Assembly (NCBI GenBank): GCA_948144175.1
Contig: CANXME010002192.1
Coordinates: forward strand, 1,054,001 to 1,118,000
Direction: 5' to 3'
Origin: Closterium sp. NIES-65
Taxonomy: Eukaryota > Streptophyta > Zygnematophyceae > Desmidiales > Closteriaceae
DNA length: 64,000 bases
A model generated the notes under the pieces. It saw nothing but the letters and a program-made list of their open reading frames with translations. It was not told where the DNA came from and ran no database searches. Both the position numbers and the translations under genes were made by a program. This document shows positions 1,009-38,181 of this stretch, piece after piece; position 1 is the first letter of the stretch; every line of letters begins with the position of its first letter.

Positions 1009-4000
1009 ATGAAGTGTTTTGGACTAGGCGGATCATTCAACGCGCGCGATGATGACGGGGCAGGCGGAACAGTCTCCGCACCCACGTCCGCCTGTAGCAC
1101 TCCCTCGGGTCATCCGCCTATCCGAAGCCGTTTCTTCAACTACCTCGGCTCTCCAACGCACCACCCGCAGAGCCTCACCTCCTCGCCTCGCACGCCAATC
1201 GCTCCTACACTAAGCGACGTTCTCGCAGATGCTAGTATCGAGGATGAAAACCTGACCTGCTCCCCCTCGTCCCAAGCTCCCCCAGCATCCGCCGCGTCGC
1301 GCTTTCTCCAGAGGCAAGCCTCCGAGCCGTATAACAACCAACCGCAGTGTGGCGATTCCCCTTCCCGAACCTCCAATTCTCCCCGCCAAAACGTGCCTCG
1401 GAGCCAGTCTGGGTCAGTGGCAGTGGTAACCACCCCGCCTTTGCCGCGAGTAGGTTCAGTTGGAGGCGGCTCGGTCGGAACAGCCGGGGAGGAGTCTGTA
1501 GAAGACGAGTTAGTTGTGGAAGGTAACGGTTCCGCGTTGGGGCGAAGGCAACGGAGAAGCTATGACGGCGGGTTAGGGTTAGGTAGCCCCGGCGGCGTGC
1601 GCGCGCCGTCGCCGCTCGGCGGGTCGCACGGAACGTCACCCGGCGACGGAGCAGGCTCTCCGTCGCCTGTTCGCCCCGCGTCTTCGCACGCACCCAGGCA
1701 GCAGTCGCAGCAGTCGCAGCAGCAGCAGCATCAGCAGCAGAGGCAGGTTCGACGAAGTCACAGCACGTCAGCCGTCGGGAGCGTTCATGCAAATGGCAGT
1801 GCTGGCGGCGGCAGTTCCGGCGGCAGCGGGGGCGGTAACAGCAGGTCCTTTAATTTCAATTTCACCAATAAAGGATCTGGCGGCGGAAGCGGCGGTGGCG
1901 CCGGAAGCGGCGGACATGGCGGTGGCGGCGGTAACAGCGGTAGCGGGAGAGGGTCCTCGGTGCAGATGTTTAGCGGGTCGAACGTTAACCCGTTCGCGCT
2001 TCGGATCACGCAGAAAATGAACTCGCCCTCGCCTCTCGTGAAGCCTGGAGGCGCGGCGAACGGAACTGCAACAGAGGCAACGGAGGTAGGGGAAGATTCG
2101 GCGGCAGATCCGCCGTCCGCGACACAAGACGCAGCAGTAGATGGCAATACCGGGGCCGATCAATCCGTCGTTTTAAGCACGCCGCGGCGGCCGCACGACC
2201 GTGCGATGCAGCGCGATATGTTGCTCATAGATGACGTTCTTAGGCGATCGGATCTTCGCGTGTTCTCCTATCCGGAGCTAAAATCTGCAACTAAGGGGTT
2301 CTCGAGCGATTTGCTTCTAGGAGCCGGCGGGTTCGGGAAGGTCTTTAAAGGGGTATTGAAGCCGGGAAGCTCGCAGGGTTCGGGAGCGGCAAACATGGCG
2401 GCAAGCGCGGCGGGCAACGCGCTGGAAAGCGCCGCAGCGGCGGTTTCGGGGGTATCTGGGGGATCACCGGGAGGCGGGGGCACTGCTGCGGGGGCGTTGA
2501 ACGGCGGAGGGGTTGGGGAAGGGCGGAGGGCGCTGCAGCAAGAGGTGGCAATTAAAAAGCTGGACTCGAAGAGCCTTCAGGTGAGAGAAATGGTCATGTG
2601 AAGAGTCTTATGAATACAACAATGTTTACATACACACATACACACATATCAGAGGAATTTTGAGGCTAATCAAAACAGAGCGCACTGCAGCAAGAGGCGG
2701 CGATCAAGAAGCTGGACTCAACGAGTCTCCAGGTGAGAAGAATGGTCAAATAAAGAGCCTTATGAATACAACAGTGTATGAAGAGCCTTATCGGAGGAAT
2801 CGACAATTATAGCGCCTTCAGGTGAGACTGAGGAGAAAGTGAGATAATGGGCCGCCAGGTGACAGAGAAGAACAGTGTTGGAAAGCCGACAACAGGGGGA
2901 AAAAAGAAATGAAAAGAAAAAAGACGAAGAAGAAGAAAAAAAACACGGAGGGCGGTGCAACAAGAGCTGGTGATTTGATTGATTATTTCAAGAGATTTTC
3001 AGTGAGTCTGGGATGGGACGTCACTTAAAAATATATGCACTTTGAAGGCTCGAGGAAAGGCATGGATTAGGGTTTTGCTGGAAACGAGGGAATAGCCACT
3101 GACTGATCAATGTTTTGTGTGATGTGAACGCACATGCTGTAAAGAGGTACGCTAAACATCTTGTAAAAGCGCAGGAGAACCCTCGCTTCTGTGCCGAGGG
3201 CCACCGCCGCCTGCTTTCCATTCAATCACTGCCTTCTCTCTTCCCTCTGCCTCCTCTGCCCCACCATTGCAGGGCCACAAGGAGTGGATGGTTGAGGTGC
3301 GATTGCTAGGCCTGATTGACCATCCCAATCTCGTCAAGCTGCTTGGCTTCTGTGCCGAGGGCCACCGCCGCCTGCTCGTCTACGAATTCCTCCCCAACTC
3401 CTCCCTGGACCGGCACCTCTTTGCTCCGCTCTCCACCACTGCCGCTGCTGCGGCGGCTACTAACACTGCTAACAGCCACCACCACCACCGTAACAGCAGC
3501 AGTCACAATCACCACGTGCATGCGTCATCTGCTTCTACCGCATCGCACTCCTCTCACTCTCACTCGCACTCCTCGAAAAAAGCGGCAGCGGCAGCGGCAG
3601 CGGCGGCGGTGCTGCTGCCGTTGGACTGGGCGACGCGGCTCAAGGTGGCGCTGGGGACGGCGAGAGGGCTGGCTCACCTGCATGAGGAGGTGCAGGTCCC
3701 GGTGAGTGCCTGGGGCTTGAAAGGGTGGAAATATTTCTGAGACTCCTTTCAGCCACCTCGCGAGGCTCAAGGCGGCGCTGGGGACGGCGAGAGGGCTGGC
3801 TCACCTGCATGAGGAGGTGCAGGTCCCGGTGAGTGCTGTGCTGTGCTGTGCTGTGCTGTGCTGTGCTGTGGGTGCTTTGATGTTGAAAGGACTGGCGTAC
3901 CTGCTCTGTGCTGCATGCTGCCGTATGTGCACTCATGTGGCTCAAGGTGGCGCTGGGGACGGCGAGAGGGCTGGCTCACCTGCATGAGGAGGTGCAGGTC

Positions 4001-5423
4001 CCGGTAAGTGCTTGGGGTGTGAAAGGTGTGGAAAGTACTTCTGAGATTCCTTGCAGTTTCCTCATGAGGCTCAAGGTGCCGCTGGGAACAGCGAGAGGGT
4101 TGGCGCACCTGCATGAGGAGGTGCAGGTCCCGGTGAGTGCCTGGGGGTTGAAGTGCTGACGCACCTGCTCTGTGCTGCATGCTGCTCCATGATGCATCCT
4201 GCATGCCGAATGTGCACTCATGCGGCTCAAGGTGGTTCTGGAGACAGCGTCGGGCTTTTTCCCAAAACTCTCCTTTCAACTCTCTCCTTCATCCCGCTCC
4301 TCCCACCTCTCCCACCCCCCTTCAGATCATCTACCGCGATTTCAAAACATCCAATGTGCTTCTGGATGCAAACTTCTGCCCCAAGCTGTCATTCCTTTCA
4401 ATATTATCACTCCTTCCCGCTCCTCCCCTCTCTCCCCCACCCCTCTTCAGATCATCTACCGTGATTTCAAAACATCCAACGTGCTTCTGGACGCAGACTT
4501 CTGCCCGAAGCTCTCTGATTTCGGGCTGGCACGGGAAGGGCCCATGGGGGAAGAGACACACGTGTCAACGCAGGTGAGGGTCGTACATAGTACGTGTCAA
4601 TGCAGGTGAGGGTCGTACATAGTACGTGTCAACGCAGGTGAGGGTCGTACATAGTACGTGTCAACGCAGGTGAGGGTCGTACATGGCACGTGTCAACGCA
4701 GGTGAGGGTCATACCATGTGCTGGACTTGGAAGTCACTGTGGGTTCTACGTCGTCGTTTGTGACTTTAAAGAGTGTATTAAAATCCAGTTTGGAGGATTA
4801 CCTTAGGTGTCAACGCGTGTTTAACAAACGCGTATGCTCAGATGTGAACACATGCTCTTTGCAGAAAAAAAGGGGCCCTTTCTACCATCTCCTTGCGCTG
4901 CAGTTGGCTGTAGCTACCTTTTGTGGTATTTTTTTTCCCAGTTCTGATAAGTTGGCTTTTCAGTCGTCTCACGTACTGTTTCATCTGGCACTGCAGCCAA
5001 TTATGCATCTCCCTTTTATGGTTGTCCCCTTCCCAACTTTTGCGAATCAACCAGGTGCGTGGCACGGCAGGGTATGCAGCTCCTGAGTACATGATGACAG
5101 GCCGTCTAACACCAAAGAACGACGTGTGGGCGTTTGGAGTCGTGCTTCTAGAGCTGCTCACAGGACGGCCGTCCATCGATCAACGCCGACCGCCGCCGGA
5201 AGTCAATATAGTTCAATTTGCGCGGCCGTACCTGCATAATAGTGCGGACCTGTTCAAGATTATGGATCCTAGACTCGGGGATAAGTACCCTAAGCAAGCA
5301 GCTGCCAAGGTGGCGGAGTTGGCGAGATGGTGCTTGGTGAATGACCCGTTTAAGAGGCCAATTATGAGTGAGGTTGTGCAGGTGCTAACTTTCTTGTCTT
5401 CCTCACAATGGCTTCAATGTTAG
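1009..5423 (+). CDS. Receptor-like cytoplasmic kinase (RLCK VII / PBS1-like)
   Basis: Serine/threonine kinase of the plant RLCK family, expected to relay signals from membrane receptor kinases in the cytoplasm. Model: exons 1009-2580, 3273-3701, 4451-4573 and 5055-5423, all junctions phase 0, 830 residues. Residues 1 to about 415 are low complexity (Ser, Gly, Gln). The kinase follows: [13 protein letters not shown] near residue 418, glycine loop GAGGFG near 438, VAIKKL with catalytic Lys516, YRDFKTSN near 670-677 (Tyr replaces the usual His of HRD, as is common in this RLCK group), DFG at 690-692, and [10 protein letters not shown] in the activation segment. Two low-complexity inserts lie in the kinase, one of about 60 residues between the glycine loop and VAIK and a His/Ser-rich one after [16 protein letters not shown]. 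No signal peptide or membrane segment was seen. The stop follows the conserved VVQVL; an alternative short last intron (donor near 5381) is possible but would remove part of that motif. Introns carry several decayed exon-edge copies. Confidence 0.88.
2658..4388 (+). repeat. Exon-edge copies in RLCK introns 1 and 2
   Basis: Intron 1 repeats the 3' end of exon 1 plus its GTGAGA donor at 2681-2732, a shorter piece ending at 2820, and a fragment at 2947-2976. It also holds a copy of an exon 2 segment at 3178-3221. Intron 2 repeats the end of exon 2 with its donor at about 3764-3833, 3940-4003, 4068-4132 and 4222-4250, and carries an acceptor plus the start of exon 3 at 4324-4388. Copies diverge and would not continue the protein, so the intact copy was taken as the exon in each case. 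Confidence 0.8.
4554..4712 (+). repeat. 33-bp tandem repeat of a 5' splice site
   Basis: About five tandem copies of a 33-bp unit lie across the end of RLCK exon 3. Each holds the exon tail GTGTCAACGCAG (one copy has a T) followed by the donor GTGAGG. The first copy, with its donor at 4574, fits the reading frame; the others give four extra potential donors in a row. Confidence 0.85.
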
Positions 5424-5996
5424 CTGATTATGTCATGATAGTCAATTTCACCGCCATGTATACTTGTGTGATTTTAATCTGAACTTGCTGATGCAGGAGT
5501 AACAAACCATACACTCTCAACAGACTTCTTATATCAACTCCACACCTCCCATCCTTGTCGCAAGCCACGGAAGCTTGTGATTGTACCTGGAACGGAGTGG
5601 GTACAACACACTCTGATTTGGATAAATTTGTCTTTGCTGATTCGACGGCACTTGTGGCTGGAACCTATCCAACCAAGGTGGCACGAAGTCAGATCTTGTA
5701 TGACGTGGCATGTACAATGCTCTGCTGGTTCGTCTGGCTGACGTGTTCGAAGTGTCGACTTCGCCACCACCTCGAGAATTTCTGGTAACAGCCAGGCTCA
5801 TCTCCCCTAGTTCCGCCACAACCCCTCCACGGACTCCCCACAGCCTTTCCACAGCGTCCGCACGCCTGACCCACCTCCATCACCTCCATTGCTCCCCCAT
5901 TTTTCCTTTGCAGCCTGCTTGTGGGTTCCCTGATCCAGAAACCACTTTCTTCCTGTCTTGACATCCATCCACCTCAGCCCACCCCCACGTGCCGCC
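5424..5996. other. Intergenic region, RLCK to small gene
   Basis: This short spacer between two genes on the same strand should hold the 3' end of the kinase gene and the promoter and leader of the small gene at 5997. A small open frame at 5710-5961 is not conserved with anything I recognise. No RNA gene or repeat was seen. Confidence 0.4.
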
Positions 5997-6556
5997 ATGG
6001 CCGCTATCTCCATGAGCATGACCCCTATGGTCCTGGCGGCCAAGGGCAAGGAGGAGGGTTCCTTCCTGGACTGGCTCGACAACGCCACTGTGAAGCAGGT
6101 GTCGTGGACCGAGACTGACTCGAGTACGTCGTAGATCATGGCGAAGTGCATTTTGCTTTCTATGGTAGTTGTGTTAGTTCGTCTTGAGATCTCGTTCAGC
6201 AATACTTTTCTTTGTAGAGCGTCAATCTCGATTTCGTTAGGGATGACAGAACATCAATACCCTCATGATCGTGCTAATCGCGTCTCGTCTCTTTAATTCG
6301 TTCCCAACTTCCGCTTTTGTTGTGCAGACCTCGTGAGCATTAGGGAGGGTAAGGGTTCCAGGCCTGGGACCCAGTCCAAGACTTCGAAGAAGACGAAGGA
6401 GACGAAAGAGAGCGTAAGTCTCATGCATGATGTCGTCTTTCGCCTTCGATTCGTGTTGCATTTAGTTTTCTTTTCTCACGTCACAATGCGTGCCTAAGTT
6501 CTCTGGATCACGTGCTTTCTGAATTGTGTGAGCAGAAGCCCTTCTGGAAGAAGTAA
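5997..6556 (+). CDS. Small unknown protein, 77 residues, three exons
   Basis: Exons 5997-6123, 6328-6413 and 6536-6556 join with consistent phase (phase 1, then phase 0). The ATG sits in an ideal initiation context (gccgccatgg). The product starts MAAISMSMTPMVLAAKGKEE, then has an acidic/aromatic part with GSFLDWLDN and SWTETD, then a Lys/Ser/Thr-rich tail ending KPFWKK. No domain or membrane segment is recognisable. The Met/Ala-rich start might be the end of an organelle transit peptide or simply the N-terminus. Support comes from clean GT/AG sites, the start context and continuous phase. Function unknown. Confidence 0.55.
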
Positions 6557-8046
6557 ATGCAGGGTGTCCTGTTAATCAAAGCTCACTGAGCATAGGATAT
6601 ACATCGCCCCATTGTAGCTATCTCAATTTTTTCAAGTAATTTTCCTCCACCCGGCTGGTGGCATTGTTGGAAGTTCTATGCTCTTTGATCTTGATTGCAT
6701 TTGACGATGCCTCATTCAAGCAAGTGTCTCCACTCTCTTGGCGTGAAAGTGATGTGTATCAAGCAGAGGAAGGAAGCTTAGGAGTGCCTTAGCTGATATC
6801 CAACAGAGGCGTTGGTCTACCCACAATCCCACTTACATGGATGACAGTCTACATGCTGACCACCAAGCAAGGCAAGCCGTCAGATTAAATATCGCCTGCA
6901 AGCCAACTGGAGTTGTTGTCTAGAAAGGCTGAGCATTCTAGGGTTACTTCAAGGACCAGTGTGTACGGTACGCCCCCAGTCCCTGGTTCACACAACCTCT
7001 AGGGGCCACTAAAAATGCTGGCAAACAACTAACATTGTATTCCCTTTACGCTATGTGTACACCTACTTGTGGAAACAAAGGCGGTGTAGAAGGCTATCTG
7101 CCATCAAGGACACCCTGTTTGTGTCGAGGGTGAGACCTGAGGTGGTAAGAGTATGGGCGGTGATACTTAGACGGGATGCACGTCAGATTCCTTCCTACCC
7201 TGACAAGTCACCCCATCCCTTCCATCACATCTCATCACACACATCAACAGCAGCATCTCAGACGCGTAGGCGCCACGCGCAAAAGGGTAGAAGCAAATGG
7301 GGCACCTGCGAGCTGTTTTGAAAAAGGGGCATTCCTTTCTTCCATTCTATATCTGCAAGAAAGTTTCAACTCGACCCCACTCTTTACGATACTGTATCTA
7401 TGTCAGGATTACGATTTCGGGGCTTTGTTCTGCCCGAAGAGATCCTTCCGGTTCCAGTTCCCCTTCCTTGCACAAACATCCTCTTCAGAACTGAACAGTT
7501 TTTTCCCATCACCCCTGCAATACACCCTTATTTGCGCTTGTAGAGCATCTGGTTGCAGAACTACACGGGTTGTAGAACCCACCACGTTCAGAACGGTCTT
7601 GTCACCAACTGTACAAGCACAATTCGAAGAATGCGGTTAGGTGAGGTGATGCACTTTGCAAAAAGCAATAACGGAAATTTTACGCCCTTGAGCCAGTCTG
7701 TCACGTGGTTCGGCTTTTCCCCCCAGGTTAATAGGAACGTTTTTTGGCACCTGACCGCATGAGACAAGTACTGCAGCAGCGAGTGACGCTAGGTGAAAAG
7801 GTTGAGAAAAAGGGTGTATCCTCCTCCCCCGTCCCCGCCACGATCGTACTCCCCCAGTCCTGGGTTTCAAAAATCTCCCCCATTTCACATACTTGAAGAC
7901 CAAGCTAGGCCTTTCCCAATCTAGTCACATCACCTCCTCCCCAATTCCACATTTCTCCCAACCACCTGGGAGCTGCAACAACTCAGCGATTAGACTCTCC
8001 TTGCTCTACCTTTCGACACTCCTAGACCGCATTTCCCGCGGCCAAG
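6557..8046. other. Intergenic region upstream of CDPK
   Basis: About 1.5 kb without a recognisable gene. Open frames here are short and overlap on both strands. It should include the 3' end of the small gene and the CDPK promoter and leader. No tandem repeat or RNA gene was seen. Confidence 0.4.
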
Positions 8047-15321
<7,275 letters not shown>

Positions 15322-15645
15322 AACATGCTCATTGTTGCCGATACATTCTATGCAGCAAACACTGCGTTTTGCTGACGATGTCTCTACAGCACTCTTGCAT
15401 GCGACTCTCTGGTTAAATTATGCTAGCTAGTGATTGATTCTCAACTGCTGTAGGTAGGTATTTGAAAGATTGACTGCTGCCTTTCAGCTTTATTTCTCAA
15501 TCGAGTCCCACTGTTCAGACAGATTTTGTGATACAGATTTCATTGCAACCAGACATCTTGCACACAGTTACCGTACACGTTTTGGTTGCACGCATGGACA
15601 TAGACATTTGGGTAGGTGCCACACCGAACACTTGTGGTAACAGTT
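15322..15645. other. 3' flank of CDPK
   Basis: AT-richer sequence after the CDPK stop, most likely its 3' untranslated region and polyadenylation area. No gene, RNA or repeat was recognised. Confidence 0.45.
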
Positions 15646-15648
15646 TAA

Positions 15649-16102: not shown

Positions 16103-16151
16103 TAAGTGACATGGCTTGAGTGCAGCTGTGCTTTGAGTGCAGAGCAGATCT

Positions 16152-17622
16152 CACCACCATCAGTACAGCTCCAGTTGAGTCTGTTTCTTAAAAACTCTCA
16201 AAAAGCAGACCAACACCATCAGTGCAGCTCCAGCTGTCCCTGCTCATTGTCCCCAAAGCCAATGCAGGTGCCGTCACGGCACAAGGCAACAGTGTGGTAC
16301 GCCCCCGTGCTGATCTGCTTGTAAACATGAACCACATGAACCACATTGAACCACACGGAAAAGAACACACATGCAAACAGACGATGATTCAGTTGACTCA
16401 AACTAGTCACAGCACAAGGGAAAGCACAGCACAATTAAAGTAGGCCCCCAAATGCTGATATGCTCACTGGCACGACACGCACACGGAAACGCACTCGCAA
16501 ACTGACTCAATGTAGCCGCTTCTCATAAGTACTCAAGCGGCACGTAGGATAAATTTGCAATACCGTAACCAGCATCAACCAGAAAGGGTGCTACCGGTGC
16601 TTCGTTGTTTCCTCACCTGCACCACTCATTTCCCCTCGAGAGCCTCGACCAGCATGCGGGAAAACACCTTGTCTCGCCCTGCCGCCAGCCACCACTCCCA
16701 CCAACCCTACAGCTACCCGTAACTCAACAGTTCACCCTCCGGCCTGTCCCTCTCACCTGCACCACTCGTTTCCCCTCGAGAGCCTCGACAGGCATGGGGG
16801 AAAACACCTTGTCTCGCCCTGCCGCCAGCCACCACTCCCACCAACCCTACAGCTACCCGTAACTCAACAGTTCACCCTCTTGCCTGTCCCTCTCACCTGC
16901 ACCACTCGTTTCCCCTCCAGAGCCTCGACAGGCATGGGGGAAAACACCTTGTCTCGCCCTGCCGCCACACCCAGCCCTCCAAACGCCGTCCATCCAAACG
17001 CCAGGACCTGCCCCTGGTCGTCCAGAGCTAGTGTCTTGCGCTTGCCCAGAGTCACCTGGTTAGAGGTTGGAAACATATGTGATGTGATACGGCAACGTGC
17101 TCAATGTGATAAGCAAATGTGATAAGCCAACGTGATAAATTGATAGGATTGTCCAATCATACCTGCACTATCCGCGTGTGCAGCAGCCCCTCCACGACAC
17201 GTGGCAGCACCTCATTGGCCTCGCTCCCATTGCCCAGGCACCCACAGTAGCCGGAACCCCACATGTGCACCTGCCCACACGCAGAGAGAGACAGGTCACA
17301 GGACGCACAGCAGCGAGTGGGCTTTAAGTAAGAACCTACACGAGGCTTTACATGACCAGACTTGTTGAAAGAAGCATTTGCTTGGCATATGTTTTTTGAG
17401 AACTCTCAAGAAACAAGTAAGAGAGCAGCGGTGAAGACCTGTGCAGACCTCTACACACACGTCAGGATTCAACTCACCCGTCCCATGCAGTCAAGAGCAG
17501 TGGAACACACCTCTTAACACCTAGTCACACCTCTTCACACGTCAGGATTCAACTCACCCGTCCCATGCAGTCAAGAGCAGTGGAACACACCTCTTAACAC
17601 CTAGTCACACCTCTTCACACGT
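16152..17622 (-). repeat. Exon-edge copies of the RCC1 gene
   Basis: The 3' end of exon 3 with its donor is copied at about 16612-16690 and 16750-16835. The 3' end of exon 1 with its donor is repeated about three times at 17462-17640 with a period of about 85 bp; the innermost copy is the real exon end. Part of the terminal exon is copied beyond the stop at about 16152-16178. Confidence 0.8.
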
Positions 17623-18171
17623 CAGGATTCAACTCACCCGTCCCATGCAGTCAAGAGCAGCGGAGTAATCAACCGAAGCCGCCACCTTCATCACACGCAC
17701 GCCCGCCCGCACCAGCCACGATATGGGGTGCGGTACCAGGCAGTCAGACAGGTCCGTTGTAGCAGCCGCCACTGCTGCAGCCGTAGCAGCAGAAGTAGCA
17801 TTAGTGGATGTAGCGCTGCCAGTAGCGGCAACACTGGCTGTATAGCTGGCGCCAGTAGCAGTCGCACCACCACCAGCACGCCTGCCCACATGCACCCTGC
17901 CAGCAGCACCCCCGGCTCGTCCCTGCCCTCGCCCCACCCGCCCTCCGCCTCCCCTCATCCCCTCCGCCCTCTCATCCCCCAACCCCTGCGCGCCCTCCGC
18001 CCATTCCCCCCATCCCTGCGCACTCCCCGCCCAGCTCCCCCAGCCCTGCGCGCCCCCCAGCTGTCCACTGTGCCCTCTGCCAAACGCCAGCACCACGCCA
18101 GCAGCAGTGACGGCCAGGGAGTGACTCGCGCCAGCTGCTACACTCACTATGCGGTACTGACCGTATGGGTC

Positions 18172-18205
<34 letters not shown>

Positions 18206-20588: not shown

Positions 20589-23500
20589 ATGGCAGACAGT
20601 TGGGGGGGAAATCCTCGCGGCGGAGGCCGCGGGAGAGGCGGAAGAGGTGGAAGTGGCGGAAGAGGCGGAAGTGGCGGGCGAGGCGGACGAGGCGGGCGAG
20701 GGTTTAGCGGATCATTTGGGGGTTCAAGGGACTCGCAAGGTTCAGGGTATAAGGGAGGTTGGGGCGGGGCTGGGCGGGGATCGGATGGAGGAGGGGGAAG
20801 ACGAGGGGGAGGCTGGGGAGGCGGGCGCGGAAGAGGGGACGAGAGGGGCGGAAGAGGCGGGGGACGGGGCGAGTGGGGTAGACAGCAGGGCGCAGCTGGC
20901 GGAGCGATTGGGCGCGGAGGGAGCGCCAGCCCCGGCGACTCGAGAAAGCGCAAGTTTGAAGGCGCAGGCGGAGGTTCCAGCGACGGTGGAGGGGGAGGCG
21001 CGCGCGGGCGAGGGTGGGGGAGAGGCGGCGGGCGCGGGAGGGACGGGGGACGAGGCGGGGGACGGGGCGGCGGACAGGGGCGGGGGGGAGGAAGAGGGGA
21101 GAGCGCACCTAGCGGACCGATGGATAGGAAGCAGAGGAAGGTGCGTGCAATGGCACTCATGGCATTCGTCGGCTTTAAAGCACCTCGTCATTCCCATGAA
21201 CACCGTCCCTCCTTTGAACCCTGTTCCCCCCTCAAAACCCTTCCCTTTTGTCCACCTCTCCTACCCTCTGTACCATCCGGCGCCTGCTGCATTAAACCCT
21301 CTCGCACCTCCTCTCCTCTTATCACTTATCACTCCCACTCTCTCCCCCCCGCCCGTCGCCTCTTAGTTTTCTCCTCTCCTCCACCGCTCCCCCTCCTACC
21401 CTGTCTCCCTCCTTCCTCTCCCTCCCCCCTCCTCCCCGTTCCCCCTCCTACCTTTTGCCCTGCGCACAGGAGTTGGCGGAGGCGCGGAAGAAGCGCCGCC
21501 GCCCGCTCTTTGATCTCGAGAAGGTGGGCGCAGAGAGGGTTTAGCGCGCCAGGATTTAGCTCCACCTTGAAACCCCAGAACTCTGGATTTGGAACAGGCG
21601 TGTTCCGGGGATAGGGGTTTAGCACTTTCCAAGTGTAGTGAGAGGCGGGCTTGGTGCAAACGGGTTGGGTGCATCAGCGCAGTGCGGGCGTGAGTATGGG
21701 TTTATGGGTGTAGGAGAGAGGCTCGGGGAGGGGCGATAGGAGACTATGTCTGTACTAGCCACGCCATGCCACGCCCTGCCACGACCTGCCACACGCCATG
21801 CCACGTGATGCCACGCCATGCCAAGTCCTGCCACACGCGATGCCATGCGATGCGATGCTATGCCATGCCATGCCGTGAAAGGCCATAGCCTGAACGTGCC
21901 CTCTCGTGTGCACGTTGGTCTCATTTGATTTGTGCTGTATACTGCTATGTGTGCATGTGTGACTGAATGCGTGGGTGATTGCACATCTGTGTGACTGTAC
22001 ATGTGTGTGACTGAATGCATGTGTGACTGTACATGTGTGTGACTGAATGCATGTGTGACTGTACATGTGTGTGACTGTACATGTGTGTGACTGAATGCAT
22101 GTGTGACTGTACATGTGTGTGACTGAATGCATGTGTGACTGTACATGTGTGTGACTGTACATGTGTGTGACTGTACATGTGTGTGGCTGAATGCATGTGT
22201 GACTGTACATGTGTGTGACTGAATGCATGTGTGACTGTACATGTGTGTGACTGAATGCATGTGTGACTGTACATGTGTGTGACTGAATGCATGTGTGACT
22301 GTACATGTGTGTGACTGAATGCATGTGTGACTGTACATGTGTGTGACTGAATGCATGTGTGACTGTACATGTGTGTGACTGAATGCATGTGTGACTGTAC
22401 ATGTGTGTGGCTGTATATCTGTGTGAGTGCACCAGGAGTTGACGCTACTGTGGGAGAAGAGTCGGCAGAGGAACATCGACATGGAGAAGAAGCGCAAGTG
22501 AGTGCCCCGTGCGTGTGTGCCCCGTGCGTGGGTGCCGAGAGTGCGTGGGTGCTGAGAGTGCGTGGGTGCCGAGAGTGCGTGGGTGCCGAGAGTGCGTGGG
22601 TGCCGAGAGTGCGTGGGTGCCGAGAGTGCGTGGGTACCGAGAGTGTGTGGGTACCGAGAGTGCGTGGGTGCCGAGTGGTGAGGGGGCGAGAGGTGGGAGT
22701 GTGAGGTGGGGAGAGAAAGGGGGGGGTAGAGGGGCGCTGAAACCTTGCTCAGAAGTGAGTGCCGAAACCGCCCCCCCCCCCCCCCCCCCCCTCCCCCCCT
22801 CTCCTCTCTCTTATGGTCCATCACTGGGGCATCTCTGAGTCAGACTGGCATCCGGAGATGTCTAAATGCGCCCTTTCTTTTTTCTCCTCGTCTTTCCTCC
22901 TCGCTTCCCAGGCTGGTGACAATGATGACTGCGGAGATGAAGGGGAAGATGGTGGAGATGATGGCGAGCTCACACACGGTCTCACGCGTGCTGCTGCTCT
23001 GCTCATTCACGCCTGCTGCTCTGCTCATTCCCTGTTCCCTCGTCCTCTCCCCCCTCTTCTTCTTCTCACCTTGAACTCATCTCTCTCACTCCTCCTCCTC
23101 CCAGGCTGGTGACAATGATGACAGCGAAGATGAAGGGGAAGATGGTGGAGATGGCGCGCTCACACACCGTGTCACGAGTGCTGCAGATGTGTGTCAAGCA
23201 CGGCCGCAAGGAGGAGCGGGAGGCTGTGTTTTCTGAGCTGCGCCCGCACTGCCGTGAGCTGGCAGTGCATCCCTACGCGCACCACTTGGTCAACCGCATG
23301 ATGGACCATGGTAAGCATGTGATGGTTTTCCTACATGGTGCATGCATGGTACGTTGTGTGTCAAGCACGGCCGCAAGGAGGAGCGCGAGGCTGTGTTTTC
23401 GGAACTACGCCCGCACTGCCGCGAGCTGGTCGTGCACCCGTACGCCCACCACCTGGTCAACAGGATGAATGATGGACCATGGTGGGTTTCATTGATAAGC

Positions 23501-26372: not shown

Positions 26373-26426
<54 letters not shown>

Positions 26427-29400: not shown

Positions 29401-31087
29401 CTGCCATCGCTGCTGAAGCTGCTGCTCCCCCACCCGCCACGAATACTGCTCCCTGCCTTCCCTCCCTCCCTGTCTCGCCTCCCCCAGCTTGCCCGAGGAG
29501 GGGACTCCTCTCTGCTCGTCCAGCACCACCCCTCGCTCCTCTCCGCTCTGCACTCTGCCATCGCTGCCGAAGCTGCTGCTCCCTGCCTCCCACTAATACT
29601 GCTCCGTGCCTTCCCTCCCTCCCTGTCTCGCCTCCCCCAGCTTGCCCGAGGTGGGGATTCTTCTCTTCTCGCCCTGCACTGCCCCTCACTCCTCTCCGCC
29701 CTGCACTCTGCCATCGCTGCCGAAGCTGCTGCCCCCCGCCCCCCTGCTGCTGCTGCCACAGCTGAGAACGCCAAGAGCGAGAAGGGAAAGAAGGGGAAAA
29801 AGGGGAAGGGGAAGAGCAAGGAGGGACAGGGTGAGGAGAAGGAGAAGGCAAAGGAGGAAGGGGAGGAGGGGGAGGAGGGGGAGAAAGCAGAGGGGGAGAC
29901 GGAGGAGCAACAGAGCCATGTGTTGGAGGACTTCTTTGGGAGTAGAGTGCTCAGGAGACTGGTGGCTGATGAGGAGAGGCTAGCAGCTGCAGCAGCTGTG
30001 GAAGGAGCAGAAGAAACGGCAAAGGCAGAAGAAGAAGCAGGAGGGGAAGGGGAAGGGGAAGGGGAAGGGGAAGGGGAAGGGGAAGGGGAAGGGGAAGGGG
30101 AGCCTTTTTGTGCTGTGTTGTGGCGAGAGGCGTTGCAAGGGCGGTGCAGGGAGTGGGGCACAGGACACAGGTGAGACCAAAGGGAGAGCGCTAGCGTGAG
30201 AGAGAGGGCTAGCGTGAGAGAGAGGGCTAGCGTGAGAGAGAGGGCTAGCGTGAGAGAGAGGGCTAGCGTGAGAGAGAGGGCTAGCGTGAGAGAGAGGGCT
30301 AGCGTGAGAGAGAGGGCTAGCGTGAGAGAGAGGGCTAGCGTGAGAGAGAGGGCTAGCGTGAGAGAGAGGGCTAGCGTGAGAGAGAGGGCTAGCGTGAGAG
30401 AGAGGGCTAGCGTGAGAGAGAGGGCTAGCGTGAGAGAGAGGGCCACAGGACACATGTAAGACAAGAGAGGACACGAATTCATGACTCTTGAAGTGTTTCC
30501 AGGAAGCGCTCTGATATTGTTTCCCTCATCTCTTCCCTCGCCGTCTCCCTGCTTTACTTCCCACGTTTCTCCTCCCTCCTTTCTCCACCTCGTTTGTTTT
30601 TCCCATTCCTCCTTTCCTTTACCCCTCCCTCTTGACTTTTGAGTCGACTCAAAAGTCTCCCTCTTGTCTCCCTCTTGTCTCCCTCTTGTCTCCCTCTTGT
30701 CTCCCTCTTGTCTCCCTCTTGTCTCCCTCTTGTCTCCCTCTTGTCTCCCTCTTGTCTCCCTCTTGTCTCCCTCTTTTCTCCCTCTTGTCTCCCTCTTGTC
30801 TCCCTCTTGTCTCCCTCTTGTCTCCCTCTTGTCTCCCTCTTGTCTCCCTCTTGTCTCCCTCTTGTCTCCCCTTCTACTTTTCCTTTTCCCCCATTCGCCT
30901 TAATCCTATCCTCCTTTCTCCCCATCCTGTCTTCTGCAGCGCCAAAGTAGTGGCAGCACTGGCCCATGCCCCTCACAAGCCAACAAAAGACGCCGCCCTG
31001 AAAGAAATGGCAGCATTCCTTGATAAGCCCGAATTTGCAGCACTGAAACGGCTGGTGGAGAGTCCTCCCACGCACCACCACCACTAG
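20589..31087 (+). CDS. PUM24: Nucleolar Puf-repeat protein (APUM24/Puf6-like)
   Basis: Divergent Pumilio/Puf protein of the Puf6/PUF-A/APUM24 group, known to act in the nucleolus in pre-rRNA processing and ribosome assembly. Exons: 20589-21140, 21470-21523, 22436-22497, 23105-23310, 23886-23969, 24945-25216, 25402-25515, 25846-25965, 27747-27902, an acidic exon ending at 28449, 28778-28852, 29641-30170 and 30940-31087. Total is about 910 residues against roughly 640 in land plants. The N-terminus is an RGG/RGR-rich tract. Then come ELAEARKKRRRPLFDLEKEL, TLLWEKSRQRN, Puf-type repeats (SHTVSRVLQMCVKHG, YAHHLVNRMMDHASK, RGHVVEMMRHPVASAVIEHA, RMVHTRDGVRIANTM, CDDHGHLLLLQLL, GRRFLLQLLAP), an expanded Glu/Gly tract, RRKLLVDSGLAE, SHVLEDFFGSRVLRRLV and the C-terminal AKVVAALAHAP. 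The junction between 27902 and about 28087 is unresolved: the frame changes within GA-rich repeats and could be an intron or an assembly error. Confidence 0.87.
21941..22430 (+). repeat. TG-rich minisatellite in Puf intron 2
   Basis: An array built from two short related units (tgtacatgtgtgtgac and tgaatgcatgtgtgac) in alternating and doubled order. It fills the end of the intron before the exon at 22436. The long open frame on the minus strand across it is a product of the repeat and not a gene. Confidence 0.92.
22520..22676 (+). repeat. 17-bp minisatellite in Puf intron 3
   Basis: About nine tandem copies of gtgcgtgggtgccgaga with few substitutions, directly after the exon ending at 22497. 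It is followed by G-rich sequence and a long run of C near 22768-22795. Confidence 0.88.
22912..24850 (+). repeat. Puf-gene exon-edge copies, exons 4 to 6
   Basis: Acceptor plus start of exon 4 is copied at about 22912-23000. The exon 4 end is copied at about 23350-23475 and again, shorter, at 23540-23620. The start of exon 5 is copied at 23733-23805 and its end at 24137-24190. Acceptor plus start of exon 6 is copied at 24693-24850. The intact copies used in the gene model are those giving a continuous frame into the next exon. Confidence 0.8.
24201..24545 (+). repeat. 21-bp minisatellite in Puf intron 5
   Basis: About 16 near-perfect copies of a 21-bp unit (gccatgccacgtactcatgg plus t). Because 21 is a multiple of three, it stays open in several frames on both strands, giving false repetitive reading frames. 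Confidence 0.95.
26051..26088. repeat. 38-bp perfect palindrome with TTTTGAG core
   Basis: Perfect palindrome with core TTTTGAGTCGACTCAAAA at 26061-26078. It is flanked on both sides by a direct repeat of about 30 bp containing gcagaggcatgatgtgtcgc, the right copy of which leads into a duplicate of the exon 8 segment. It lies in an intron of the Puf gene. Confidence 0.92.
26829..27450 (+). repeat. 113-bp satellite derived from a Puf-gene exon
   Basis: Five to six tandem units of 113 bp starting near 26829, 26944, 27057, 27170, 27283 and 27396. Each contains the start of exon 9 (coding for FVIKKLLKDLFEVVQEQ) and a pyrimidine-rich intron stretch. Less regular copies lie at about 26526, 26621, 26725, 27499 and 27625. 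The intact exon starts at 27747. Confidence 0.93.
28590..29575 (+). repeat. Puf-gene exon-edge copies, exons 11 and 12
   Basis: The start of exon 11 is copied at about 28590-28640. Acceptor plus start of exon 12 (coding for LARGGDSSLL and SALHSAIAA) is copied at about 29176-29260, 29333-29420 and 29489-29590, with a period of about 155 bp, before the intact exon at 29641. Confidence 0.82.
30190..30441 (+). repeat. 18-bp minisatellite in the last Puf intron
   Basis: Fourteen tandem copies of gctagcgtgagagagagg, almost without variation. The unit is a multiple of three, so it is open on both strands, but it begins shortly after the donor at 30171 and lies in the intron. Confidence 0.95.
30634..30870 (+). 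repeat. 24-bp palindrome followed by 11-bp array
   Basis: A perfect 24-bp palindrome (30634-30657, core TTTTGAGTCGACTCAAAA at 30637-30654) stands at the left edge of about 20 tandem copies of tctccctcttg (to about 30870). The sequence left of the palindrome (ccctccctcttg) resembles the array unit, so the palindrome again marks a duplication edge. Confidence 0.9.
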
Positions 31088-31912
31088 CAACGGTAGCAGC
31101 AGGAGGTGTGTTTTGAGTCGGCTCAGAGAACTCACCTCTGTAGCAAGGTTCGCCTATCAATCCGAGCTTGCGGCACTGAAATGATTGGTGGAGAGTCCAC
31201 TGTTCCACCACCACTAGCTGCAGCAGCAGCTGCAGCAGCGTTAAGAGTATCACCTGTTTTGGTGCCCTGCCTGCCCCCCCCACCACCACCGCCGCCACCA
31301 TCAGTAGCAGCAACAACAAAACCACAATTTTACTGAGTGTGCATTGCGTAGACAAGAAAATCACAATTCACTGCTTTATCTGCTGATGTGTTGTTGGAGG
31401 ATGGGATAGGAAATTGAAAACTAATCTTGTCGTTATGGAATGAAGAAAGCATTTACGGTACAATAATTTACATGGCTTCCCAGCAGAGCAAGTTGTCTCT
31501 CTACCTTGCTGAGGGCCACCCATGACTATGGATACAAGCTACACGTTAACAAAACCTTGCCAGTACGAGACACTTTAGTAATGCTTGTATAGGCCACAAG
31601 GCAGATTTGTTACATTACAAAGACCATTGGCAGATGGAAGCGAGAAACCTGCAACAACAGCAGAACTAGAAGCAGCAGAAGTAGCAGCAACAGCAACAGA
31701 AGGGACAGTAGTCAATTTTCACCAACGGTTACTGCTTGCATTACAGCAACTGATACTCTATCCTTTTGCACAGCAGTAGGTGAAACCACACAGCAGATGG
31801 TCACCATTCTGCCAGAAGGACCAGGGGCCAGGACCATGCTTGGAGCTCCCTAAGTGCAACGCTTAGCACCAACAGTGTGCAACACCCAATGTGGAAACAC
31901 TAAGCACAGCAC
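31088..31912. other. Convergent intergenic region, Puf gene and MPP-beta
   Basis: Just after the Puf stop lies a near-palindrome (31111-31126, TTTTGAGTCGGCTCAGAG), then a decayed copy of the last Puf exon at about 31150-31215. The rest probably holds the two 3' ends. Short Gln/Ala-type triplet tracts occur. No other gene was seen. Confidence 0.5.
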
Positions 31913-34900
31913 TTAATATCGCAGCCAGAAAGTGCGGCGGCGCAGCCAGTTGTAATCTGGGAGGAACTGCGTCGGGCCGATGGCTGCCACCGCCACATCC
32001 TGAGTAGGGGGTATGAATGGGGAAGGGGGAGTAGAATAAGGGGGGAGGGGGGACACGTGTGACGAAACTGACCAATTGTAGTCCGGGAAGAACTGCATAG
32101 GGCCGATAGCTGCCACCGATAGCTGCCACCGTCCCGTACTGTTGAGCATCACACAGGGCAGTCAGTGAACCGCTCTGGAACGCACTTCACCGTCTCAGCA
32201 TCCACGGCATCGATACGCGCACAACCCTCATCACAAGCGGCACACCCACTCCCACCATCATCACCCATCATCACCCTTCATCACCCATCCCACTTCTCAC
32301 CCTGTCCATCAGGAACCGCTCTGCAACGCGCTTCACCGTCTCAGCATCCACGGCATCGATGCGGGCAAACATCTCAGCCAGCGGGATGCGCCGCCCGTAC
32401 GTGATCAGCTGCCGCCCGATGTCCTCCGCCACTGCGCTTGAGCCGTCCAGATGCAGAGCAAGGGATGCCTTGAGCTGTGGGGTGGGTGGGAAGGGGTGGA
32501 GAGGGGTGCACACGTGCGTACGTGATCAGCTGCCGACCAATGCCCTCCGCCACTGCACTCGAGCCGTCCAGGTGCAACGCCAGGGACACCTTCAGCTGGT
32601 GGGGTGGGTGGTGTGGAGGGGGTTGGCGGTGGGTGGGGTATCACAATGACCAGTGAAAGCTGAGTGGTGCGAATGCATGTGAGGTGACAGCATGCTACCG
32701 CAAATGGCTGGTAACATGCTGACAACGGGCTGACTGACTGACAGCATGCTGACGTGGCATGGCACTTACTGCGTTGCCAGCGCGGGTGACGTCGTCATCA
32801 GACACGCGGTACACGAGGCGGGTGATCTCATGCATCATGGCCCACGCGAGGTCGTCCAGATGGTCGGGCTGCTCATGGCATGGCACCAGACAGAAGAGCA
32901 CATAAACAATAGGGGGGGGGGGGGGGGGGAAGGAGGGGTGGTGGGAACAGGACAGGGTAGGGTGGGCATATGAGACACAGACACGCGGTACACGAGGCGG
33001 GTGATCTCATGCATCATGGCCCACGCGAGGTCGTCCAGATGGTCGGGCTGCTCACATGCATGGGGATATGGTGGGAGAGTGAGGAGATGGGGACATGGTT
33101 TAGGCAAATGAAGCACATGTCACATGCGAGTGACCCCATCTCATGCATCATGGCCCACGCGAGGTCGTCCAGATGGTCGGGCTGCTCACATGCATGGGGA
33201 TATGGTGGGAGAGTGAGGAGATGGGGACATGGTTTAGGCAAATGAAGCACATGTCACATGCGAGTGACCCCATCTCATGCATCATGGCCCACGCGAGGTC
33301 GTCCAGATGGTCGGGCTGCTCACATGCATGGGGATATGGTGGGAGAGTGAGGAGATGGGGACATGGTTTAGGCAAATGAAGCACATGTCACATGCGAGTG
33401 ACCCCATCTCATGCATCATGACCCACGCGAGGTCGTCCAGATGGTCGAGCTGCTCACATGCATGGGAACAGACAGCACGGCATCAACAATGGGAGGTTGG
33501 GAATAAGGCAGGGTATGGAGAAAGGCCAGAGTAGGGTGGGTTGGGTATGTGGGACACAGCATGCGGTCGACGTGGCGAGTGATCTCACACATCATGGCCC
33601 ATGTTAGGCCATCCAGATGGCCGGGCTGCTCATGTGCATGGGGATTAGTATGAGCATGAGAAGATGGGAACATGGGGTAGGCAAATGAGACATGTTGTAT
33701 GGTGGCTGAGGGAAGTACGCTGCTTGCAATGAAGTGCCTTGCATTGAAATTCTGAAAGCTGCACTTCATTGAAAGCTGCACTTCATTGAAAGCTGCACTT
33801 CACCTTGGCGCAGGCATAGACGCCAAACAACCCCGTGTCAGAGTAGTTGGTGTTGAACGCCATGAATCGCTCACACAGGCTGTTGGCCGCCACCTTCTGT
33901 GCCAACTCCGACCTGCAAGGAGAGGGGGAGACGGTAAGAAGGAGAGGGGTGGAGAAGGATGGGGGGCAGGCAGGGAGAGATGAGCAGAGAGAGGGGCTGG
34001 ACTGGATGGATGCTGCAGTTGGTGTTGAATGAAATGAACGCCATGAAGCGCTCACAGAGACTGTTGGCCGCCACCTTCTGCACTGGAGAATAAAGAGGGC
34101 AACTCTTCAGTATGTGAGGGGGAAGCAAGGTGGAGGGGCAGGGAGAGATGAGCAGGGAAAGAGGGGGACGAGAAGATGGGGCTAGCGCACCACAGATATT
34201 CCTCTCGATCACTCACACGCCCCGCGGCTCCAGGACCCCAGCATGGCCTGCATGACCTGCAGCGTCATGGCATCACCATCTCACTCCATACTGTACCATA
34301 GCACACCGTGATTCTTAACCCAACGCATTCCCCTGCCCGCCCCGCAGCTCCACGACCCCAGCATGGTCTGCATGACCTGCAGCGCCACAGCATCCAGGTC
34401 GGTCCAGATGGGCTACTGCTCGCCGTACCATACCACCAAACCATACCATACTACCTAGACGCGTGTTTCTTACTCACCCCAATGCATTCCCTCCGCCAGC
34501 CACGCGGCTCCATGACCCAAGCATGGTCTGCATGATCTGCAGCGCCACAGCACCACCCTCTCACCCGCCTGATTGCTCGTAACCCATCACACAACCACCC
34601 ATCACCCCTCATAAATACTCACCCCAGAGCATTCCCCCCACCAGCACCGCGGCTCCACGACCCCAGCATGGTCTGCATGATCTGCAGCGCCACGGCATCC
34701 GGGTCCGTCCAGCTGGCGCCCTTGTAGGCGATGGCGAAGTTGGTCAGCGGCATGTCGTCATCACGGATGCGCACCTCAGAACCTGAGAACAACGGGGGCA
34801 GGGAAGGGAAGAGGAGAAGCGAAGGAGGAGGGGAGGAGTGGTTAGCAACTAGCAGTCCAGCTGGCGCCCTTGTAACCACTCCTCTGTAAGCAATGGCGAA

Positions 34901-37900
34901 GTTGGTCAGCGGCATGTCGTCATCGCGGATGCGCACTTCGGAGCCTGGGGGGAGAAGGGGTGAGGGTGGGAGGGAGGAGGCGTGTGGGTGGGAGGGGAGG
35001 GATTGTTGACTTGAGACAGCAGTCCAGCTGGCGCCCGCCCTTGTAGGCAAGGGCTTGTTGTCGCCACGAATGGGCACCTCTGAGCTTGAAGACAAAGGGA
35101 GTGGGAGGGGGGGGAGGGGGATTGGTGACTCATAAAATCTCTCACAAGTGGCCCCACACCACGGACATTTGAACTTGAACTGGATGGCAAGAGCTGCAGC
35201 AGCACCACCACTACCCCACCTGTGAACTTGGAGGGCTCTTTGGCAATGAGGTCAGCAACAGTGGTGGTGCTGGCAGCAGGCAGCAGTGGCTGGTGGCCTT
35301 TGTACATTCTCAAAACTGGCTTATTTACACACACCACCACCACCACCAGTAACACTCACCTGTGAACTTGGAGGGCTCCTTGGCAATGAGGTCAGCGACC
35401 GTGGTGGTGCTGGCAGCAGGCAGCAGTGGCTGATGGCCTTTGTACATTCTCAAAACTGGCTTATTTACACACACCACCACCACCACCAGTAACACCCACC
35501 TGTGAACTTGGAGGGCTCCTTGGCAATGAGGTCCGCGACAGTGGTGGTGCTGGCAGCAGGCAGCGAGGCGAAGGTCTTCTCCACCATCTTCACCAGCGCG
35601 TCGTGATCCACCGCTCCTGCTGCCGACACCACCTGGGGGCAGGGTGAGGAGGGTATGGGGGGAGGACGGGTTTGGTTGCGGCAGGGGGGTTGGTTAGTGA
35701 CTGCAGCAGGCAGCGAGGCGAATGTCTTCTCCACCATCTTCACCAGCGCATCGTGATCCACCGCTCCTGCTGCTGAGACCACCTGAAGGTGAGGAGAACG
35801 GGTGTGGGGGGGCCGGGGGGTGGGAATTGTTGGAAGGAAGAGAGCAAGGGCAGGCAGCGACGCGAATGTCTTCTCAACCTTCTCCACCAGCGCGTCATAG
35901 CTCGCCGCTCCTGCTGCCGCCACCACCTGGGGGAAGCGGGAAAAGGGTGGAGGAGATTGGATGAGCGGTGGAGGGCGGGTAGTCCGTCGCAATGTGCCTC
36001 TCAAATGCTTTCTGGGAATAGCAAGCATACCTTGCCCCCCACGCATTCCTTTCCTCTTTTGAGGCGCCTCAAAAGTCGCAATGTGCCTCTCAAGATCCTT
36101 TCTGGGAATAGCAAGCATACCTATCCCCACCACGCATTCGTTCCCCCCCACGCCACCCCACCCCACACACGCAGCCACATCCATCCCCGCTATAAGCTCA
36201 CCATCCTGGGCCCGGTGTAGTGCGTGGCAATGTACTTCTCGAGGTCGTCCCTTGTGATGGCGCGCACGTTGTCCGCGGACCCCAGAATGGAGGCACCCCG
36301 TCCTCCCCACCTCCCACCACACGCAGCCCCATTCATCCCCGCTATAAGCTCACCATCCTGGGCCCGGTGTAGTGCGTGGCAATTTACTTCTCGAGGTCGT
36401 CCCTTGTGATGGCGCGCACGTTGTCCGCGGACCCCAGAATGGAGGCACCCCGTCCTCCCCACCTCCCACCACACGCAGCCCCATTCATCCCCGCTATAAG
36501 CTCACCATCCTGGGCCCGGTGTAGTGCGTGGCGATGTACTTCTCGAGATCGTTGCGCGTAATGGCGCGCACGTTGTCCGCGGAGCCCAGAATGGTGCGCC
36601 CCAGCGGGCTGAACTGGAACGCCGTGGCGTGCAGATGGTCGAACAGCACCTCCTCCACCTGCTTCTCGATCTGCGCGTGTGCGTGTGCGTGGTGGGAGAG
36701 AGGGGTTAAGTGGGGAGGGAGCAGGGTAAGTGGAGGGTGGGAGGCTTGACAGGAGTTGAGAGGTGGATCGTGGCGTGCAGATGATCGAACAGCACCTCCT
36801 CCACCTGCTTCTCGATCTGCGCACGTGGGGAGAGAGGAGAGGGGGAACGTGGGGTGGGGGATGAGGGAAGGAAAGGGGACGCGTACACGCGAGCCCAGAA
36901 TGGTGCGCCCCAGCGGGCTGAACTGGAACGCCGTGGCGTGGAGTTGATCGAACAGCACCTCCTCCACCTGCTTCTCGATCTGCAAACGGGCATGGGTGAG
37001 CGTGTGCGCGCGTGTGTACGTGCGTGTGTGCGTTAGGGAAGGGGTGCAAGTGGGAGGTTAGGGAGTTGCAAGGAGGGCTGAACTGGAACGCCGTGGCGTG
37101 CCGATGGTCAAATAGCACCTTCTCCACCTGCTTCTCGATCTGCGCGGCTATGGGTTGGGGAAAAAAAGGTAAATGGGAACGCGGAAAGGGGGCCGGCGGA
37201 CGAAGGGAATTCAAAGGAAGGGGGAGAAGCGGGTCGGGGCGTGCAGATGGTTCACGCGACTAATCTGCACATCCACCTGCTTCGCGATCTGAAAGGCAAG
37301 ACGAGAATCGATACCGCAAGAGCGTCGTTCTCCCAATAAGTACGCCGCCTGTTTCCGCTGGAGCAACCACTACGATCAAGACAGTTACTGGTGAGAACGA
37401 AGGCGACTCGGATCGCCACAATAGCACGTACTAACTCTACCGCCTTAATACGCTCGTAGTGCCACCATCACCACCATCACCGGGCTATAAAGAGTACGTC
37501 GCCATAGTACCTCCTGCATTTCCCGCAAAAAAAGAACCGACAGTTTAGCAGCGCGCCTGTGTCCCAACGGAACTAACGTACCTCCTGCATTTCCCGCAAA
37601 ATGACTCCGCGCTCGCGGTCCACCGCATCCTCGCTAAAAAGCGAATTCTGCAGAATGTCTCCGAGCAGATCTACTGCGACGGGGATATCCTTCTGCACCA
37701 CCTTCGCGTAATACGTCGTCATCTCGCGCGACGTGTACGCGTTAAGATGTCCTCCGGCATTCTCAACCTCCATCTCCAGCTGCTGCACCGACCGTCTCTT
37801 AGTCCCCTTAAAAATCATATGCTCCAGAAAATGCGCGGTTCCGTTAGTAGCTTCGCTCTCGTACCGGCTCCCCGCGTCGATCCACACGCCGATCGTGGCC

Positions 37901-38181
37901 GTCTTCGGCGCGTTCGGGTTCGGGTTCGCCTCGCTAGCGACGCGAAGGCCGTTGGATAAGGTCGTGACACGTGTCGCCGGGATAAGCCCGAGGGCCGCGC
38001 TGTGATCGACGGTTATGGGGATCGGCGAGTTATAGCGCGCGAATCGGTCCTCGTCCACTATCTGCACGGCTGCGGGGGCTGCTTGCGCGGAGAATGCGCG
38101 GAAAGGGGCGATCGAGCCAGATCTGCGGCCGGACGCGGAACGAGCCGCGCGGGACGCGGCGGCTAGCAACCGGGAAGCCAT
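31913..38181 (-). CDS. MPPB: Mitochondrial processing peptidase beta subunit
   Basis: Catalytic subunit of the matrix peptidase that removes presequences from imported proteins; in plants it is part of the cytochrome bc1 complex. Exons on the minus strand: 38181-37582, 36670-36506, 35632-35500, 34782-34623, 33912-33804, 32868-32770, 32474-32301, 31999-31913; all phases match, 508 residues, normal length. The first about 35 residues form an Arg/Ala/Ser-rich presequence without acidic residues ([20 protein letters not shown]). The zinc site is HFLEH at 117-121, with the distal Glu197 76 residues on, as in active beta subunits. Conserved landmarks: [79 protein letters not shown] and the C-terminal [16 protein letters not shown]. 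An upstream in-frame ATG at 38295 would add a Pro-rich leader and is less likely. Confidence 0.95.
33030..33460 (-). repeat. 134-bp satellite derived from MPP-beta exon 6
   Basis: Three to four nearly identical 134-bp units, each with the first part of exon 6 (coding for [14 protein letters not shown]) and a G/A-rich intron stretch. A more diverged unit lies at about 33570-33630. The intact exon is at 32770-32868. Confidence 0.9.
35986..36150. repeat. Tandem duplication with palindrome at its junction
   Basis: A unit of about 70 bp starting gtcgcaatgtgcctctcaa is present twice, and the palindrome TTTTGAGGCGCCTCAAAA (36057-36074, 20 bp with its outer pair) sits exactly between the copies. It lies in an MPP-beta intron. 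Confidence 0.88.

Follow-up and report, generated by a model that had tools for sequence, protein, structure and literature searches.

Tandem copies of exon edges in the introns of Closterium sp. NIES-65 genes

The introns of five large genes (RLCK, CDPK, RCC1, Puf and MPP-beta) in a 64,000-nt stretch of the Closterium sp. NIES-65 genome (contig CANXME010002192.1, positions 1,054,001–1,118,000; hereafter the window) carry dense, direct and local partial duplications, many of which copy the edge of the neighbouring exon. In the MPP-beta and CDPK alignments, copies downstream of an exon consist of its 3′ end and the GT donor, and copies upstream of it consist of the AG acceptor and the exon start. 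The pattern is real and extends beyond the window. We consider short tandem duplications that arise throughout genes, filtered by splicing and coding constraint, to be its best explanation, with a probability of about 0.52.

A self-BLAST of window positions 1–39000 yielded 118 direct pairs of at least 40 nt, spaced 40–3000 bp apart. Over the same positions, no direct pair of at least 60 bits lay beyond 3 kb and a single inverted pair was that strong, which rules out an inverted or dispersed origin of the copies. Together with gene models and alignments, the self-BLAST bears out the original prediction that the introns of all five genes are filled in this way. For RLCK, RCC1 and Puf (the last identified by its PUF match), the same directional pattern was seen in selected alignments, their gene models being incomplete.

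Exon edges were scored in nine modelled genes, namely MPP-beta and CDPK from the window and seven chaperonin loci of the PF00118 family. The latter carry the working label CCT, irrespective of chaperonin group; their exons are Pfam matches completed with score-chosen splice sites, and some exons are missing, mostly from CCT1, CCT6 and CCT8. A copy in the adjoining intron was found for 59 of the 100 edges, as opposed to 21.6 for shifted exons. Donor edges were copied in 28/50 cases, against 10.8 (standard deviation 2.9, maximum 20) in 1000 shifts along the same loci, and acceptor edges in 31/50, against 10.8 (standard deviation 2.8, maximum 21); a separate recount gave a mean of 48.5 of the 50 exons retained per shift. 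By the criteria used, the reverse arrangement, with a copy on the wrong side of its exon, occurred in none of the 100 edges, exactly as the predicted rule demands. At least one scored copy accompanied 39 of the 50 exons, and the four exons of CCT1 had no edge copy by these criteria. The claim that nearly every exon is copied was thus too strong, the actual figure being about 60% of edges.

Intron enlargement by tandem duplication had been expected to be a wider process, and it was also found outside the window, at six of the seven chaperonin loci and in three of four CDPK paralogs. The fourth paralog (L023), of which only one exon matched well, showed no edge copies. The PF00118 search recovered genes on paired contigs, four of them with extra partial matches beside their exons that, judged by eye, obey the directional rule. 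When intron-rich queries were searched as DNA against the genome, the matches were mostly repeats.

Among the copies that reach the edge, the splice dinucleotide is kept in 68/74, with AG in 36 of 40 upstream and GT in 32 of 34 downstream copies (one 11-copy array is omitted from this count). The foreseen abundance of decoy splice dinucleotides is therefore present, and mis-splicing at them is possible, judging from the sequence. Coding differences between copies and their exons were collected from 99 copies, 11 of which form one young array (CCT4 exon 5). This set leaves out pairs overlapping a scored copy, copies with fewer than 7 comparable codons or fewer than 20 aligned exon bases, and CCT1 exon 3, an exon without an open frame. 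The idea that frame is kept only in the copy adjoining the exon body did not hold, as 79 of the 99 copies have no net frameshift over their aligned part, with 5 stops in 2329 codons.

With arrays collapsed, the nine loci contain 63 edge-spanning and 57 intron-only pairs, two exon–exon pairs and two outside pairs. Whole-exon duplication is ruled out as the source, because only the two exon–exon pairs have both copies in exons. The median period is 157 bp for edge-spanning and 142 bp for intron-only pairs. The nearest copy lies a median of 79 bp from the exon (interquartile range 62–104) and includes a median of 73 bp of it. Periods are evenly distributed modulo 3 (20, 18, 25), so the copies are not retained for in-frame extension. 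Introns of three genes range from 222 to 1327 bp, and about half of the sampled intron bases lie within detectable copies, with a repeat coverage of 0.53 near exons and 0.47 far from them; coverage is 0.16 across six 7-kb regions taken at fixed positions and 0.19 over window 39–64 kb.

The MPP-beta gene (minus strand) was modelled with eight exons. Exons 1–5 (37582–38181, 36506–36670, 35500–35632, 34623–34782 and 33804–33912) rest on a PDB phmmer alignment to MPP-beta; putative exons 6–8 (32770–32868, 32301–32474 and 31913–31999) were placed by eye from frames and GT–AG sites, in what we take to be the order of the protein. Self-BLAST and alignments locate two donor-side copies of exon 2 with a period of about 152 bp (36153–36442), its acceptor-side copies (36769–37146), where extra partial protein matches also fall, and one donor-side (35197–35284) and one acceptor-side (35850–35948) copy of exon 3. 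Exon 6 is preceded by an acceptor-side array of a 134-bp unit and an older copy (32978–33688), found as a tandem array and by self-BLAST.

The CDPK gene (plus strand) also has eight exons, at 8047–8258, 9012–9481, 10244–10396, 11050–11162, 12030–12197, 13025–13152, 13787–13886 and 15214–15300 (the end of the last is not fixed), based on the kinase match, paralog conservation and splice sites; splice sites are canonical in both models. Self-BLAST and alignment revealed a donor-side copy of exon 2 with its own GTAAGT (9518–9624), two donor-side copies of exon 3 with GTCAGT (10507–10760), an acceptor-side copy of exon 4 with CAG (10864–10936) and a series of donor-side copies of exon 7 (13965–14970). 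A donor-side copy of exon 5 (12265–12320), 98% identical with an unalignable intron part, was found by alignment, and four acceptor-side copies of exon 6 (12571–12978) by alignment and paralog comparison.

In RLCK (plus strand), according to self-BLAST and alignments, an exon that ends near 3701 has donor-side copies (3761–4152), and one that starts near 4451 has an acceptor-side copy made of a CT-rich tract, CAG and the exon start (4271–4390). RCC1 (minus strand) has an 80-bp unit of exon end, GTGAGT and intron at one exon edge (17456–17664) and a second array (16612–16982) whose 140-bp unit, judged by eye, closes with a GT-containing exon edge. The partly modelled Puf gene (plus strand) aligns as an acceptor-side pair at 22895/23090 and a donor-side pair at 23188/23355 (22895–23483). 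By eye, introns of the modelled genes appear G-rich before donor-side copies and CT-rich after acceptor-side copies. Elsewhere in the window, a 20-bp satellite with 54 copies and 98% matches occupies positions 62922–64000 and reaches the window end, and a dispersed high-copy repeat at 38520–38980 and 61562–61921 has at least 39 full or partial matches in the genome at 87–96% identity, the second of these two places being one of them.

The accessible part of the genome report describes Closterium peracerosum-strigosum-littorale NIES-65 as 876 Mb of haploid material with many duplicated genes and a mean intron of 485 bp (PMC10407611). In the assembly analysed here (874 Mb, 2400 contigs), many genes sit on two near-identical contigs, which we call sister contigs and which may be recent segmental copies instead of alleles. 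Window 1–25300 aligns to its sister contig (C548) at 99.2% with three indels of at least 12 bp. All three lie in tandem arrays and alter the unit count; that of 80 bp is an extra RCC1 exon-edge unit on the sister contig. The arrays are still changing, which is not the same as a new duplication. Three chaperonin contig pairs together have two indels of at least 12 bp (44 and 21 bp), neither traced to a duplication, and the contig pair of one CDPK paralog has no indel of that size. As a separate observation, the paralog is also carried by a third contig, L012 (C453) and L019 (C2165) being 98.6% identical with many small gaps, a situation to be expected of strains with aneuploidy or segmental duplication.

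In the explanation we prefer, short stretches, typically about 140–160 bp long, would be duplicated in tandem throughout genes. Duplications internal to an exon or spanning a whole exon would mostly be purged by selection, and those internal to an intron would be harmless. A duplication across a donor would leave the exon on the first copy and place an extra exon end with GT downstream, and one across an acceptor would leave the exon on the last copy and place AG and an exon start upstream. With the outer splice site still used, the mRNA would be unchanged, and the duplication would persist as the intron grows. The pieces could then expand and contract by unequal exchange, the exon part of the copies being refreshed while the spacers drift. 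The directional rule follows automatically from coding continuity: since other outcomes break the protein, it describes what tolerated duplications must look like. This explanation is supported by the direct and local placement of the copies, the similar periods of edge and intron pairs, the presence of only two exon–exon pairs, the even periods modulo 3, the pairs with an intron part alignable across the splice site and the unit-number indels against the sister contig.

Untargeted duplication was simulated with events that copy a whole exon or lie inside one disallowed, and ran until introns had grown to 750 bp; the input, 56 periods and 34 exon lengths, was entered by hand from earlier listings. 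When ancestral introns measured 80 or 150 bp and every edge event was allowed, edge-spanning events made up a share of 0.48–0.52 and 0.58–0.63 of internal edges were copied. Introns of 300 bp gave an edge share of 0.41–0.42 with 0.45 of edges copied, and tolerating half of the edge events gave 0.28–0.37 and 0.34–0.50. The observed proportion of copied edges is close to the simulation, both in the nine genes and in MPP-beta, CDPK and CCT7 (29/44).

The agreement is only partial, and several findings weigh against untargeted duplication as a full account. The edge share reaches 28/40 = 0.70 in the contiguously modelled genes MPP-beta, CDPK and CCT7 (two-sided P = 0.017 versus 0.50) and 47/70 = 0.67 with CCT3 and CCT4 added (P = 0.006). 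An edge share of 0.53 over the nine loci, which had seemed to match the simulation, is lowered because exons missed in partly modelled genes were counted as intron, and the match failed on the contiguously modelled genes. The simulation also predicts that up to 9% of events span a whole short intron. An even spread of breakpoints over introns and intergenic DNA, named beforehand as telling against the first proposal, is not what the comparison with intergenic DNA shows. Duplication density (counts divided by lengths) was about 2 per kb in gene loci, several times the 0.33 per kb in the six 7-kb regions and the 0.44 per kb in window 39–64 kb, a provisional contrast given that the six regions are unannotated and a minisatellite dominates one of them. 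Where an exon has copies on both sides (20 exons), the ends of upstream copies and the starts of downstream copies are separated by a median of 10 nt, compared with 28 nt when permuted (P = 0.002) and 24–33 nt when simulated with full edge tolerance; some exons are exceptions, with gaps of 65, 298, 42 and 45 nt. Beside many copies the intron part cannot be aligned despite 94–98% identity in the exon part, as at CDPK exon 5, where the exon part of the donor-side copy differs at 1/49 positions. This is unexpected for a young, plain duplication. Finally, the 99 copies show a deficit of nonsynonymous differences, considered below.

The excess in edge share means that either slower decay of the exon parts or real targeting must contribute. 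Targeting would mean that duplication is initiated at or phased by exons, through exon-centred nucleosomes or splice-linked structures, with units that reach from the middle of the exon some 80 bp into the intron. It gains from the edge share, the meeting of upstream and downstream copies near one exon point, the narrow nearest spacer and the higher duplication density in genes. Among pairs of at least 90% identity, 9/14 in three genes and 16/25 in five genes span an edge, the latter not significantly different from 0.50. Similar breakpoints also recur at exon 5 of the CDPK paralogs, where upstream copies end at 74, 75, 71–87 and 85 and donor-side copies start at 119, 108–114, 98–105 and 78–110. 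This recurrence reflects common descent or repeated events, and descent is suggested by the spacer after one exon 6 copy, which by eye looks orthologous between paralogs. Set against targeting are the intron-only duplications of the same period and the fraction of copied edges, nearly reached without it in simulation. Slower decay may also account for the edge excess, since exon parts that decay more slowly keep edge pairs detectable for longer, and the excess is then no proof of targeting. The predicted attraction of breakpoints to exon borders may account for the edge share, but the periods and the copied-edge fraction do not call for it. We regard targeting as a serious but doubtful alternative.

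In 32 nearest copies from the nine loci and two CDPK paralogs, the RLCK acceptor-side pair and the RCC1 80-bp units, the intron part can be aligned across the splice site. Divergence in the 32 copies is 0.185 in the intron part and 0.093 in the exon part, and is higher in the intron part in 28/32; the comparison keeps copies aligned at least 40 nt past the edge, where intron gap counts are unreliable. The nonsynonymous share of coding differences is 246/652 = 38%, below the roughly 53% expected of neutral copies beside constrained exons with CpG and transition bias allowed for. CpG or the mutation spectrum alone does not produce the synonymous excess, as the expectation drops merely to 0.53. 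With the closest CDPK paralog as outgroup, which is distant at synonymous sites, the copies carry 35 nonsynonymous and 24 synonymous changes and the exon 1 and 20, with 14 more at a third state and 5 lacking an outgroup base. Six donor-side copies of CDPK exon 5 in four paralogs differ from their own exon at 1–5 of 49 nt and from the exons of other paralogs at 10–26, a likeness far less clear for some exon 4 and exon 7 copies, and MPP exon 2 has one copy with an identical intron part and a diverged exon part. Exchange between copy and exon would yield both the exon 5 and the MPP exon 2 pattern. By a simple, uncomputed argument, exchange alone would leave the nonsynonymous share unlowered, so some constraint on the copies is unexplained.

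Lagging-strand fragments are phased by nucleosomes. Exon chromatin might accordingly phase the units, with breakpoints near mid-exon and about one nucleosome away; nucleosome-sized edge copies would be shed repeatedly, for example by faulty joining of lagging-strand fragments, and would exchange with the exon, damaging changes being selected against as transferable back. We think this scheme rather unlikely.

Selection for the copies as alternative exons or splice decoys seems improbable to us. The nonsynonymous deficit, the retained splice dinucleotides and the better conservation of the exon part speak for such a function. The even period modulo 3, a net frameshift in 20/99 copies and the five stop codons speak against it, as does, by eye, the lack of a common donor where upstream copies end and of a common acceptor where downstream copies start. 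AGGT proto-splice sites show no enrichment either, both partners carrying AGGT in 17/88; none of period, shared second splice site (by eye) and AGGT enrichment gave a sign of copy use. An assembly artefact from collapsed or stuttered repeats, for which one could cite the slightly different array copy numbers between contigs and the absence of a sister contig for MPP-beta and most of Puf, can practically be dismissed, because sister contigs agree wherever present (window 1–25300, three chaperonin loci and one CDPK paralog) and exon parts of copies differ from their own exon by up to 12/51 nt, beyond what stuttering gives.

If short tandem duplication filtered by constraint is the correct account, these genes let intron growth be observed in progress, with much intron length deriving from short duplications, in an alga that is probably related to those nearest to land plants. 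The simulation provides a simple null model against which exon-edge copies can be judged, and it sets apart the remainder that it leaves unexplained. Three anomalies, namely the meeting of breakpoints, the greater divergence of intron parts and the nonsynonymous deficit, merit genome-wide study. The many partial exons that retain intact splice dinucleotides could mislead gene annotation in this genome.

Short tandem duplications made through paired nicks are familiar from plant and rice work. In the portion of a mouse-cell study open to us, breaks with staggered nicks yield short tandem duplications (PMC8355091), which resemble the present ones in being direct and adjacent; its insertions are shorter than 100 bp, whereas units here are mostly 110–200 bp, and such a reaction is proposed only. 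Tandem exon duplication and mutually exclusive exons, as far as the available text goes (PMC9013439), likewise place copies of exon sequence in introns, but as whole exons, whereas here they are exon parts with one splice site; scored copies carry one edge, and by eye their inner ends have no common second site. AGGT-type intron gain has reportedly been demonstrated in an original study. In Drosophila, the accessible part of one report describes exon sequence that was tandemly duplicated and partly turned into intron (PMC2891723). The Drosophila route needs a proto-splice site inside the unit, whereas here copies lie beside existing splice sites and AGGT shows no enrichment, at 3.4 per kb in the copied parts of exons versus 5.4 per kb in the rest. 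We reject AGGT intron creation as the general cause, although single copies may qualify.

A literature search, with most subscription papers outside its reach, found no account of exon-edge copies as a general genome feature among the papers listed. Single cases of duplication across a splice junction are known, as the consulted part of one paper describes (PMC4974935). The likeness to a tandem genomic duplication spanning a splice junction is that the unit crosses the intron–exon boundary and the second copy keeps the old splice signals. Direct, local placement was found over window 1–39000, and exon part, splice site and intron part occur in one unit in the 32 nearest copies, RLCK and RCC1, the intron part being unalignable in many others. 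In that known case, so far as the source could be consulted, one event gave one new intron, whereas in the present genes introns already there are lengthened by many events per gene, with no new intron demonstrated.

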